In this document: one piece after another, positions 13,405-15,012 of the stretch
How positions within the stretch are numbered: position 1 is the stretch's first letter
How the letters are laid out: every line of letters begins with the position of its first letter
Source: a virus
Length of the DNA: 64,000 nucleotides
Direction: 5' to 3' (one strand)
IMG/VR virus record: IMGVR_UViG_3300023171_000011
Location: 1-64,000 of that record
Position numbers and translations under genes: made by a program
The notes under the pieces: model-generated
Databases searched by the model: none
Told to the model about the DNA's origin: nothing
What the model saw: only the letters and a program-made list of their open reading frames with translations

Positions 13405-13432
13405 CGCTTGTTCGCAAATTAAAAACTTTTCG

Positions 13433-13440
13433 TATGTTTG
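13433..13440 (+). promoter_or_regulatory. Promoter box TATGTTTG upstream of tRNA region
   Basis: A perfect TANNTTTG match, with TTG 22 nt upstream (13408-13410). It would give a transcript with about 130 nt of leader before the mini ORF at 13578 and could drive the tRNA cluster. Confidence 0.55.
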
Positions 13441-13496
13441 CGAGGTAAATGTTTCGGACGTTCTGTCTGAGCTATTTCGTTAGTTTTGTTTTCATA

Positions 13497-13525
13497 GAAA
13501 GTCTGGACTGGTACTCCGGACTTTC
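13497..13525 (+). ncRNA. Stable hairpin in tRNA-operon leader
   Basis: GAAAGTCTGGA pairs with TCCGGACTTTC (11 bp, one G-T), loop CTGGTAC. No T-run follows, so it is not a terminator. It lies between the two promoters of the tRNA region and may be a stability or processing element. A 36-codon frame also crosses it (see rejected list). Confidence 0.5.
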
Positions 13526-13540
13526 ACATTTAAAAATAAA

Positions 13541-13573
13541 TTTGGCTGGATTAAAATAATTGTCTTATACTTG
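13541..13573 (+). promoter_or_regulatory. Promoter TTTG-N21-TATACTTG before leader ORF
   Basis: TTTG at 13541-13544 and TATACTTG at 13566-13573 (one mismatch to TANNTTTG), 21 nt apart. The mini ORF starts 4 nt downstream, so a transcript from here would be leaderless. Confidence 0.5.
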
Positions 13574-13577
13574 CATC

Positions 13578-13646
13578 ATGAAATTACTAAACATACATCA
13601 GTGGCCCAATCAATTTGACATTATTGTCGAGCGGTTTACTGTGTAG
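13578..13646 (+). CDS. Putative 22-aa leader peptide of tRNA operon
   Basis: A 22-codon ORF beginning MKLLNIHQWPNQ and ending in TAG at 13644-13646, lying between a promoter and an intrinsic terminator that precedes seven tRNA genes. Codons 6-10 are ATA CAT CAG TGG CCC (Ile-His-Gln-Trp-Pro), matching five tRNAs encoded downstream (Ile-TAT, His-GTG, Gln-TTG, Trp-CCA, Pro-TGG). Codon 4 is CTA, which Leu-TAG reads. It is too short to call by coding statistics alone. The support is its position and codon content. Inference: attenuator peptide whose stalled translation favours readthrough. Confidence 0.45.
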   Translation: MKLLNIHQWPNQFDIIVERFTV

Positions 13647-13680
13647 TTTTAATTATAAAATTATTTAGGCCTCTTGACAA
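13624..13680 (+). promoter_or_regulatory. Candidate antiterminator pairing
   Basis: TTGTCGAG (13624-13631, inside the leader ORF) pairs with CTC-TT-GACAA (13671-13680): 8 bp with TT bulged. The target includes most of the 5' arm of the terminator at 13669-13699, so the two structures exclude each other. A ribosome stalled at leader codons 6-10 would leave 13624-13631 free; one that reaches the stop would cover it. Confidence 0.45.
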
Positions 13681-13699
13681 AAATCAAGGGGCTTTTTTT
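13669..13699 (+). terminator. Intrinsic terminator upstream of tRNA genes
   Basis: GCCTCTTGA (13669-13677) pairs with TCAAGGGGC (13684-13692), 9 bp with one G-T, loop CAAAAA, followed by seven T. It sits only 6 nt upstream of tRNA-Trp, so transcripts from 13433 or 13566 must read through it to make the tRNAs. Confidence 0.85.
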
Positions 13700-13705
13700 A
13701 TGCAC

Positions 13706-13776
13706 AAGGGTTTACGATAATGGTAGTCTACGGGTCTCCAAAACCTAGAGTAATGGTTCGAATCCATTAACCTTTG
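13706..13776 (+). tRNA. tRNA-Trp (CCA)
   Basis: Acceptor AAGGGTT/AACCTTT (7 bp, one G-T), discriminator G73 as usual for Trp, T8 A9, a short D-arm with GG, anticodon loop CTCCAAA (anticodon CCA) with one mismatched base at the base of its stem, and a perfect T-arm (AATGG, TTCGAAT, CCATT). 71 nt, no encoded CCA end. The D-stem has three pairs only. Confidence 0.8.
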
Positions 13777-13781
13777 CAAAT

Positions 13782-13855
13782 AGTGCAATATATCAATTGG
13801 TTAGATTACCGCATTTGGGATGCGGAGGTTCCGAGTTCGAGTCTCGGTTGCGCTA
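13782..13855 (+). tRNA. tRNA-Pro (TGG)
   Basis: Acceptor AGTGCAA/TTGCGCT, anticodon stem CCGCA/TGCGG with loop TTTGGGA (anticodon TGG), T-arm CCGAG TTCGAGT CTCGG, discriminator A. A well-formed 74-nt cloverleaf without encoded CCA. Confidence 0.9.
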
Positions 13856-13931
13856 CGTAGTAGGAAGAGCGGTTCGAGTCCGCAGGATCTTTGATCTGAT
13901 AGTGTATCTGGCTAGCACACCTGCGTTATTT
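13856..13931 (+). ncRNA. tRNA halves in permuted order (3' half then 5' half)
   Basis: Exactly 76 nt between tRNA-Pro and tRNA-Gln. First comes a 3' half: GTAGG (13860-13864), variable AAG, T-arm AGCGG TTCGAGT CCGCA, then GGATC. Then, after TTT, a 5' half: GATCTGA, TA, a perfect D-arm GTGT ATCTGGCTA GCAC, A, and CCTGC (13920-13924). CCTGC can pair with GTAGG (5 bp, anticodon stem) and GATCT with AGGATC (5 bp, acceptor). The acceptor is two pairs short and the T-stem has an A-A mismatch. Either a permuted tRNA gene or decayed remnants. The anticodon would lie at the joint and cannot be read. Confidence 0.45.
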
Positions 13932-14003
13932 TACTGCCTAGTGTAATGGTAAGCACAACAGACTTTGATTCTGTTAGTCGGAGTTCGAATCTCTGGGTGG
14001 TAA
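13932..14003 (+). tRNA. tRNA-Gln (TTG)
   Basis: Acceptor TACTGCC/GGTGGTA (7 pairs, two G-T), D-arm GTGT/GCAC, anticodon stem ACAGA/TCTGT with loop CTTTGAT (anticodon TTG), T-arm CGGAG TTCGAAT CTCTG, discriminator A. 72 nt. Confidence 0.88.
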
Positions 14004-14005
14004 CG

Positions 14006-14077
14006 GTGATTCTGTCCGTAATGTAACGGAGCCGGTCTGTGAAATCGGTTATCAGGGTTCAAGTCCCTGGTTTCACA
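14006..14077 (+). tRNA. tRNA-His (GTG)
   Basis: Acceptor GTGATTC/GTTTCAC with two T-T mismatches, D-arm TCCG/CGGA, anticodon stem CCGGT/ATCGG with loop CTGTGAA (anticodon GTG), T-arm CAGGG TTCAAGT CCCTG. A G precedes position 1 (14005) and can supply the G-1 required by HisRS. Discriminator is A rather than the bacterial C. Confidence 0.85.
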
Positions 14078-14083
14078 CTAAAT

Positions 14084-14155
14084 ATTTCTGTACGTCAACG
14101 GATAGACTACGAAGCTACGAACTTCGGAATAAGGTTTCGAATCCTTTCAGAAATA
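14084..14155 (+). tRNA. tRNA-Arg (ACG)
   Basis: Perfect acceptor ATTTCTG/CAGAAAT, T8 A9, D-stem of three pairs with GG in the loop, perfect anticodon stem CGAAG/CTTCG with loop CTACGAA (anticodon ACG), T-arm AAGGT/CCTTT with a mismatch closing the loop, discriminator A. 72 nt. Confidence 0.85.
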
Positions 14156-14160
14156 CAAAT

Positions 14161-14240
14161 GCCCTGCTGACTTATGCAAACTGGTACAGCTACAAGTCTT
14201 AGAAACTTGGTTTTTCTCGGTTCGAGTCCGAGGTGGGGTA
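14161..14240 (+). tRNA. tRNA-Leu (TAG)
   Basis: Acceptor GCCCTGC/GTGGGGT (several G-T pairs), anticodon stem CAAGT/ACTTG with loop CTTAGAA (anticodon TAG), T-arm CTCGG TTCGAGT CCGAG, discriminator A. The D-arm is enlarged and the long class-II variable arm expected for tRNA-Leu is nearly absent, so this gene is structurally degenerate though the anticodon is clear. Confidence 0.75.
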
Positions 14241-14246
14241 CTAAAT

Positions 14247-14320
14247 ATGCTGTTAGCTCAGTCGGTTAGAGCGCCACTCTTATAAGGTGGAAGTCAAAGG
14301 TTCAAATCCTTTACGGCATA
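14247..14320 (+). tRNA. tRNA-Ile (TAT)
   Basis: Acceptor ATGCTGT/ACGGCAT, T8 A9, D-arm GCTC/GAGC, anticodon stem CCACT/GGTGG with loop CTTATAA (anticodon TAT), T-arm AAAGG TTCAAAT CCTTT, discriminator A. 74 nt, well formed. Anticodon TAT reads AUA directly; most bacteria use a lysidine-modified CAT tRNA instead. Confidence 0.9.
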
Positions 14321-14336
14321 CTTGTTAAATAGTCTG

Positions 14337-14368
14337 AGGCAGCAGTCGTGATGATAGCTGCCTTTTTA
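14337..14368 (+). terminator. Intrinsic terminator of tRNA cluster
   Basis: AGGCAGC (14337-14343) and GCTGCCT (14357-14363) form a perfect 7-bp stem, 13-nt loop, then TTTTT. It ends the tRNA transcript. Confidence 0.85.
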
Positions 14369-14604
14369 TTGTCGAAATAGATCGTAAATTATCCAAGAAA
14401 TCCCTTATTCCTACCAAAACGTCAAAATAAGCCTGTTTTCAAAAGCTTAATTCGACGAAATCTTATTTGATGGTCATTTGATAGACCTAAGTATTAAAGT
14501 GTCTTATATCGCTTTAAAATCACTTAAATGGGTAATTTTTATTTGATTGGCATTCGGAAAGAAAAGAAAGTGAAAATAAATGTTGACAGTATGAAAATTA
14601 AATT
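14369..14604. other. Non-coding spacer before replication operon
   Basis: About 235 nt without a supported ORF, hairpin or RNA gene. Its right end contains TTGACA (14583-14588), usable as -33/-35 element of the promoter at 14605. Confidence 0.4.
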
Positions 14605-14612
14605 TACATTTG
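14583..14612 (+). promoter_or_regulatory. Promoter TTG-N19-TACATTTG of replication operon
   Basis: A perfect TACATTTG box at 14605-14612 with TTG at 14583-14585. Transcription should start around 14618-14620, at the beginning of the structured leader. Confidence 0.7.
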
Positions 14613-14619
14613 TGATGTA

Positions 14620-14649
14620 ATGGCAAGATATTTGGAAGTAGTGAGCTGA
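14620..14649 (+). CDS. Possible 9-codon leader ORF
   Basis: ATG at 14620 encodes MARYLEVVS followed by TGA at 14647-14649. It spans the upstream strand (14635-14645) that pairs with the terminator loop, so its translation would block that pairing. ATG lies at the predicted transcription start. Very short, so coding status is uncertain. Confidence 0.3.
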   Translation: MARYLEVVS

Positions 14650-14718
14650 ATATCGTAAAGTCAATAAAGGCATTAAGAAACTGCCCCTGGAGAAACTCAC
14701 TACCTTCAGGGGTTTTTT
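14635..14718 (+). promoter_or_regulatory. Pseudoknot/attenuator leader with terminator before 14725 gene
   Basis: Terminator hairpin: CCCCTGGAG (14684-14692) with CTTCAGGGG (14704-14712), 9 bp, then six T (14713-14718), only 6 nt before the next ATG. Its loop holds CTCACTAC (14696-14703), the exact complement of GTAGTGAG (14638-14645). With one bulged C, pairing extends to GAAGTAGTGAG with CTCACTACCTTC, entering the terminator's 3' arm. Hence a pseudoknot or an antiterminator. Expression of the replication operon must depend on avoiding this terminator. Confidence 0.7.
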
Positions 14719-14724
14719 ATTTTT

Positions 14725-15012
14725 ATGGAAAATTTACAAGTAATCTGTCCAAAATGTAGTTCCTCTAATTATAGAGTTGAGCAAAGAGGTATTCACAAAA
14801 CAGCATTCTGCCAGGAATGTGATGCTTACATCAAGAATCTCCCACAAGGCGTACCGACAACACTTTTCTTTGGCAAGTACAAAGGCCGTACAATCGAATC
14901 TATGATGGAGAAGGATGAAGTGGGTTATCTTGTATGGTTGCTTACTAAGCCGGACTTAAAACCAAACTCCCTGCGTACAGCAATTGAGAAACATTTAATT
15001 AGCGGTAAGTAG
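14725..15012 (+). CDS. Zinc-ribbon protein with exoX-like C-terminal domain
   Basis: 95 aa. N-terminal zinc ribbon CPKC (Cys8, Cys11) and CQEC (Cys29, Cys32). The C-terminal part LFFGKYKGRTIESMMEKDEVGYLVWLL matches the small GKYKGxxIxE...DxxYLxWL module found at the end of exodeoxyribonuclease X-like and other DNA-processing proteins. It lies immediately after the terminator leader, first gene of the replication operon. Probably nucleic-acid binding; exact role unknown. Confidence 0.7.
   Translation: MENLQVICPKCSSSNYRVEQRGIHKTAFCQECDAYIKNLPQGVPTTLFFGKYKGRTIESMMEKDEVGYLVWLLTKPDLKPNSLRTAIEKHLISGK

Follow-up and report, generated by a model that had tools for sequence, protein, structure and literature searches.

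A phage tRNA operon very likely governed by a leader-peptide attenuator whose codons match the encoded tRNAs

RESULTS

Organisation of the tRNA locus

The stretch of DNA analysed here (the window) comprises 64 kb of the 74.9-kb record of a Bacteroidota virus, and partial DNA matches point to Cellulophaga phages as its nearest cultured relatives. Seven tRNA genes lie downstream of a gene for a membrane protein (phrog_2470) and upstream of genes for an HNH endonuclease, a replication initiation protein and a primase/helicase-like protein. Across 13566-13706, a -7 promoter box is followed, after 4 nt, by a 22-codon ORF, a terminator hairpin ending in seven T residues, 6 nt of spacer and the first of the tRNA genes. 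This is the single instance in the window of a promoter-ORF-terminator module of this kind. The features are as follows:

13541..13544, + strand: weak -33-like TTTG, 21-nt spacer (an inference)
13566..13573, + strand: -7 promoter box TATACTTG, Bacteroidota sigma-A type TAnnTTTG with one mismatch, 4 nt 5' of the ATG
13578..13646, + strand: leader ORF, 22 codons plus TAG, peptide MKLLNIHQWPNQFDIIVERFTV, probably leaderless; the homolog in L036/G001 is MELRNIQQWPNQPDIIVKRFAV
13587..13613, + strand: control codons CTA (Leu) at codon 4, ATA CAT CAG TGG CCC (Ile His Gln Trp Pro) at codons 6-10 and CAA (Gln) at codon 12
13624..13637, + strand: antiterminator segment (segment 2) inside the ORF, TTGTCGAGCGGTTT, duplex with 13668-13680, -15.7 kcal/mol
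13667..13699, + strand: intrinsic terminator, stem 13667-13692 (11 bp by scan), T-run (T7) 13693-13699
13706..13777, + strand: tRNA-Trp(CCA), default ARAGORN, 6 nt 3' of the T-run
13782..13856, + strand: tRNA-Pro(TGG), default ARAGORN
13932..14004, + strand: tRNA-Gln(TTG), default ARAGORN
14006..14078, + strand: tRNA-His(GTG), default ARAGORN
14084..14156, + strand: tRNA-Arg(ACG), default ARAGORN
14169..14241, + strand: tRNA-Leu(TAG), weak score, relaxed ARAGORN settings only; Rfam 21.9 bits, partial
14247..14321, + strand: tRNA-Ile(TAT), default ARAGORN
14335..14368, + strand: hairpin and T-run closing the tRNA operon (AGGCAGC..GCTGCCTTTTT), from fold and sequence

A sequence-only reading had placed a short ORF with five tRNA-cognate codons at positions 6-10 between a promoter and a 9-bp terminator, had listed tRNAs for Ile, His, Gln, Trp, Pro, Leu and Arg downstream, and had noted that a segment of the ORF could pair with the 5' arm of the terminator. 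Most of this held. The ORF, which begins ATG AAA TTA CTA AAC ATA CAT CAG TGG CCC AAT CAA, and its codons 6-10 (13593-13607) had been given correctly; the promoter claim was borne out by the -7 box and the weak -33-like TTTG; and the tRNA list was confirmed, with Leu-TAG called under relaxed ARAGORN settings only. The terminator is present, but its stem is 11 bp long, and the pairing is real but longer than had been claimed, joining TTGTCGAGCGGTTT (13624-13637) to GGCCTCTTGACAA (13668-13680).

Two further tRNA-like features were seen. The interval between tRNA-Pro and tRNA-Gln (13857-13931) contains two tRNA halves, the 3' half coming first and the 5' half second; put together in reverse order, they fold into a cloverleaf that ARAGORN calls as a tRNA, for Asn or Arg according to where the cut is placed. 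The halves are likely left over from a tandem duplication; that they form a circularly permuted tRNA gene is not ruled out. In the same phage, outside the window, a lone additional tRNA gene scores 49 bits (G000:C1:70536-70607, - strand), with an anticodon that ARAGORN left unassigned.

Codon match within the window

Among 1,084 ATG starts followed by at least 14 open codons on either strand of the window, only the leader ORF has a run of five cognate codons together with representation of six of the seven tRNAs. The array tRNAs can read 16.8% of CDS codons, giving p ~1.3e-4 per site for five in succession. For the window alone, the codon match amounts only to a post-hoc p of ~0.001, and relatives were therefore sought.

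Related loci

The first relatives, two phage contigs with tRNA arrays that were reached through relatives of the portal protein, both have the same architecture. DNA-pattern scans specified the promoter box, the terminator end (GGCTTTTTT, no stem being demanded) and the tRNA T-loop, and neither an ATG nor codons; one further scan included the ATG and one was run on bacterial genomes. With the scans, the set grew to 36 leaders, 33 of them distinct, and 34 once L162 had been added. Together with two leaders that start with GTG (L086 and L153) and second leaders found by a relaxed finder in four of the same contigs, the 34 distinct arrays bring the number of leaders with this architecture to about 40. 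Cultured Cellulophaga phages phi4:1 and phi17:2 possess the module, and the phi4:1 record has no annotated feature at the leader position.

The -7 box lies exactly 4 nt 5' of the ATG in 28 of 34 leaders and 5-7 nt from it in the other 6. In 32 of 34 loci the T-run and the first tRNA gene are only 0-9 nt apart, which leaves no space for a separate tRNA promoter. Chromosomal examples are three and five tRNA-Trp genes near gldB in Chitinophaga, a Cys-Phe-Tyr array in Spirosoma oryzae and a Trp-Cys array in Emticicia agri (L117, L120, L121 and L115). Group searches of ~985 Bacteroidota genomes found the strict pattern in the query genomes only; hence the module is rare in chromosomes.

The relatives are a biased selection, as the scans require particular promoter-, terminator- and T-loop- or tRNA-like strings (not codons), and the set gives no prevalence. 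Relatives of the primase, the membrane protein and a small neighbour gene led to loci without tRNA arrays or to no loci. A viral scan for GTTCAA T-loop arrays, intended as a validation set, returned mostly chance matches and gained only L162 and L153, both of which fit. Some tRNA genes have promoter- and terminator-like strings upstream but no leader (L067/L090, L082, L094, L095, L100, L137, L164 and L194); an ORF reported at L137 by the relaxed finder was spurious. This finder detected no leader at arrays of crAss-like Kehishuvirus (L206 and L207) or at the tRNA-Trp of a Leeuwenhoekiella phage (L205).

Leader codons follow the tRNAs of their own array

In every array type the leader includes codons of its own tRNAs. 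Of leader codons 5-14, the first tRNAs of the same array can read 55.8%, as against 23.6% when arrays are swapped (z 8.5; 0 of 20,000 permutations), whereas codons 2-4 and 15 to the end stay at background level. The signal is restricted to the frame of the ORF (z 8.6, -1.4 and 0.0 for frames 0, 1 and 2), which lends indirect support to translation of the leader.

Given that the 34 leaders fall into some five array classes, they are phylogenetically structured rather than independent. With one leader drawn per class, the true pairing alone ranked first among 120 in 90% of draws; within-class permutation gave 1 of 20,000 at the codon level and 0 of 20,000 at the amino acid level. Arrays of the same class match almost as well as a leader's own (0.497 versus 0.559). 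In the Pro/Gln/His/Arg class, all five leaders whose array has tRNA-Glu contain a Glu codon, and none of the eight whose array lacks it does (p 0.0008). Four contigs have two arrays each, and there leaders match their own array at 0.3-0.9 and the other at 0-0.1.

Single cases illustrate this. The nearest relative, L036, has an array of Trp, Pro and Gln and a leader that reads ATG GAA TTA AGA AAC ATA CAA CAG TGG CCG AAT CAA CCT...; CAA and AGA take the place of CAT and CTA in the window, and tRNA-His and tRNA-Leu are absent from its array. L037, with Trp, Gln, two Ser, two CAT and Asn, has ...ATA CAA ATA TCA CAG AGT TCG AGT AAT TGG TCT..., and the second leader of L092 has CGT ACA CAT ACG CAA CAG TTT TGG TTC CCT ACA with an array of Pro, Thr, Phe, Gln, His, Arg and Trp. 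The match extends to the Arg isoacceptor: leaders whose arrays carry only Arg-ACG/TCG contain eight CGN and no AGR codons (CGN being 32% in the window CDS), and L053 has an AGA codon with tRNA-Arg TCT in its array.

Pro is encoded by CCG in 13 of 18 cases in the leaders, and CCG makes up 13% of Pro codons in the window CDS. Selective-charging theory expects rare, wobble-read codons to be sensitive in attenuators (PMC1183508), and the leader preference for such codons may perhaps reflect their use as sensitive control codons, an inference only. The match is not perfect: L036 has ATA without tRNA-Ile, and the window leader has no control codon for Arg (ACG does not read the CGG at codon 19). Scored by amino acid, the match is as strong as when scored by codon. 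In contrast to his or trp leaders with their runs, a leader here has most of its control codons once or twice, so that sensitivity would have to be high.

As a separate observation, tRNAs are grouped by sub-operon (L046, L058, L062, L053 and others): those for C-starting codons (Pro, Gln, His, Arg and Leu-TAG), those with long variable arms (Leu, Ser and Tyr), those for U-starting codons (Trp, Phe, Cys and Tyr) and those for A-starting codons (Asn, Ile and Arg-TCT). The grouping could conceivably reflect joint destruction of tRNAs.

The antiterminator covaries with the terminator

Each of the 34 loci has a segment, at about codons 16-21, that can pair with the 5' arm of its own terminator, with a mean of -13.5 kcal/mol; the duplex in the window reaches -15.7 kcal/mol, compared with -6.1 when shuffled. 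Pairing with the own arm (-13.5) is stronger than with swapped arms (-8.8; 0 of 20,000) or in shuffled leaders (-7.4 kcal/mol). The complementarity thus covaries across loci, as a switch requires, whereas exposure and masking of the segment by a ribosome are inferred. A ribosome covers ~12-15 nt past its A-site codon. Therefore, a stall up to about codon 13 would leave the antiterminator free, and a ribosome that has advanced to the stop codon would cover it. The codon signal fades at about codon 13, matching this limit.

Equilibrium folding with a stalled ribosome prefers the terminator (mean 0.78 versus 0.13), which means that the readthrough decision would be kinetic. Before synthesis of the 3' arm, the mean antiterminator pairing is 0.77 when the ribosome is stalled at codon 11. 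A 1:2 protector hairpin has no statistical support (own -6.7 versus shuffled -5.8, with a mean of 0.38 of shuffles equally good), and untranslated leader RNA might therefore read through.

A probable leaderless start

The TAnnTTTG box of Flavobacterium psychrophilum occupies positions -12 to -5 (PMC9723704). With the 4-nt gap between box and ATG in most leaders, transcription would therefore start on the A of the ATG, and the leaders are likely to be leaderless, as inferred from sequence alone. Leaderless transcripts are a small minority in F. psychrophilum (5.5%, PMC9723704).

DISCUSSION

The computation establishes the architecture of the module, a codon-array match that is specific to frame and position, covariation of antiterminator and terminator, and the lack of room for another promoter. 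A promoter directly 5' of a short ORF, control codons cognate to the product and an intrinsic terminator between the ORF and the tRNA genes are features of an attenuator that are met here; the antiterminator is met in pairing and position, its exposure and masking being inferred. We consider it very likely that the locus is a ribosome-mediated transcription attenuator through which a tRNA operon responds to shortage of the tRNAs that it encodes, a conclusion drawn from sequence alone, with no expression, translation or termination data.

In the proposed mechanism, transcription would begin at or near the AUG, and a ribosome would trail RNA polymerase along the 22-codon leader. If the tested tRNAs were all plentiful, the ribosome would reach codons 16-22 and cover the antiterminator segment; the terminator would then fold and halt transcription 6 nt 5' of the first tRNA. 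If Leu, Ile, His, Gln, Trp or Pro tRNA were scarce, the ribosome would wait at any of codons 4-12, the exposed segment would capture the 5' arm of the terminator, and polymerase would enter the tRNA genes. A single leader would act as an OR gate over several tRNAs, with negative feedback closing the loop. The natural trigger would be tRNA loss in infection, through host shut-off or defences that cleave tRNAs, and not a lack of amino acids. Leaderless translation, stalling, termination, readthrough and induction by tRNA loss are all inferred.

The rival that survives best keeps the attenuator and changes the signal: uncharged tRNA in amino acid starvation would be sensed, and tRNA output would be the by-product of a borrowed amino-acid attenuator. 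Leader-peptide attenuators have been reported for amino acid biosynthesis operons of Flavobacterium (PMC9723704), and the codon-array match is equally strong at the amino acid level. However, tRNA synthesis cannot relieve a lack of amino acids, up to seven amino acids are mixed in one leader, and Arg codons track the isoacceptor (CGN with ACG/TCG, and AGA with TCT in L053). We therefore regard this rival as unlikely.

Less likely still, and very unlikely in our view, is direct RNA sensing of the T-box type, in which anticodons of uncharged tRNAs would pair with specifier-like triplets without a ribosome. The leader does contain triplets complementary to the array anticodons, but the signal is limited to a single reading frame, which opens with an ATG placed at fixed spacing and runs up to a stop, and the many tandem specifiers would be unlike a T-box. 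By Rfam gathering scores, tRNA alone reached the cut-off in the window stretch and 13 relative loci, with no cis-regulatory family, and a search of the window stretch in Rfam to E 1 gave no T-box match.

A constitutive terminator or RNA-processing hairpin, with the ORF and its codon match due to chance or codon bias, is all but excluded: the window match was noticed after the fact and the terminator adjoins tRNA 5' ends, where it could also serve processing, but the 0 of 20,000 permutations, the frame and position specificity, the two-array contigs and the covarying antiterminator speak against it. A separate small RNA of ~115 nt or a functional micropeptide, coincidentally close to the tRNAs, is likewise virtually ruled out, since, although promoter and terminator alone would yield a short RNA, the peptide is unconserved (11 synonymous versus 26 non-synonymous codon differences in close pairs) while codon content tracks the array, and the short gap between T-run and tRNA genes leaves no promoter space.

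The preferred reading, attenuation by a translating ribosome, is that of the sequence-only reading, for which unconserved codon content would have been a refutation. Content follows the tRNA repertoire across unrelated arrays, so the refutation does not apply; the comparative data support attenuation, while translation, termination and induction remain inferences. To this we add the probable leaderless start, several tRNAs per leader, leaders for individual sub-operons in some large arrays, and occurrence in a few host chromosomes. The novelty suggested for a phage tRNA operon controlled in this way met no prior report: in the open-access literature searched, no title or abstract concerned phage tRNA operons under such control, which does not prove novelty.

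The class of mechanism is already known. Attenuators of amino acid operons (trp, his, leu and pheA in E. coli and others) share with the present system a promoter, a short ORF with product-cognate control codons, an antiterminator overlapping the 3' part of the ORF and an intrinsic terminator just 5' of the structural genes. In contrast to these, the product here is the tRNA itself, several amino acids are represented once or twice each, the system is phage-encoded and probably leaderless, and a 1:2 protector hairpin is not evident. The leader-peptide attenuators inferred for amino acid biosynthesis operons of F. psychrophilum (PMC9723704) resemble it in host phylum, in sigma factor box and in the logic of the leader peptide, but target biosynthesis mRNAs instead of tRNA arrays. 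In T-box riboswitches, too, the state of a tRNA decides between terminator and antiterminator, but the tRNA is read directly without a ribosome, and the loci compared with Rfam gave no T-box match. What sets the present system apart from described attenuators is the inferred control of tRNA genes, in phages, with several tRNAs per leader.

The purpose of phage tRNAs is debated, codon compensation being set against replacement of tRNAs destroyed by host defences. Host tRNA-cleaving defences and phage tRNAs as a counter-measure are established (PMC10264068, PMC13096335), and amplification of tRNA-Tyr in T6 counters Septu (PMC13096335). Such counter-defence tRNAs would share with our system the replacement of host-destroyed tRNAs and the importance of dosage, whereas those papers describe cleavage-resistant tRNAs or gene amplification; term searches within both found no leader or attenuator. 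Sensing of tRNA loss to defences is the most attractive purpose for the attenuator, albeit inferred and not shown. On a bolder reading, to which we lean only slightly, Bacteroidota phages carry multi-input sensors of tRNA depletion, one leader per sub-operon in large arrays, that would switch on missing tRNAs after their destruction by the host or by tRNA-cleaving defences, so that the arrays would be an inducible counter-defence and not constitutive codon compensation. If true, the output of the attenuator would be the sensed tRNA, with several tRNAs per leader; each leader would reveal which tRNAs the phage "expects" to run short and would be a ready-made reporter. With phi4:1 and phi17:2 as cultured carriers, the idea is testable now.

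Other noncoding features near the locus

The intergenic region 5' of the leader (13405-13530) contains three inverted repeats, including GAAAGTCTGGA..TCCGGACTTTC at ~13497-13525 without a T-run, for which we have no explanation. Beyond the tRNA operon, 14583-14725 holds a second promoter (TTG at 14583, -7 box TACATTTG) and a ~100-nt leader that has no leader ORF, then a terminator immediately 5' of a 95-aa gene at 14725. The loop of that terminator contains CTCACTAC, the complement of GTAGTGAG near 14640, and this is possibly another riboregulator.
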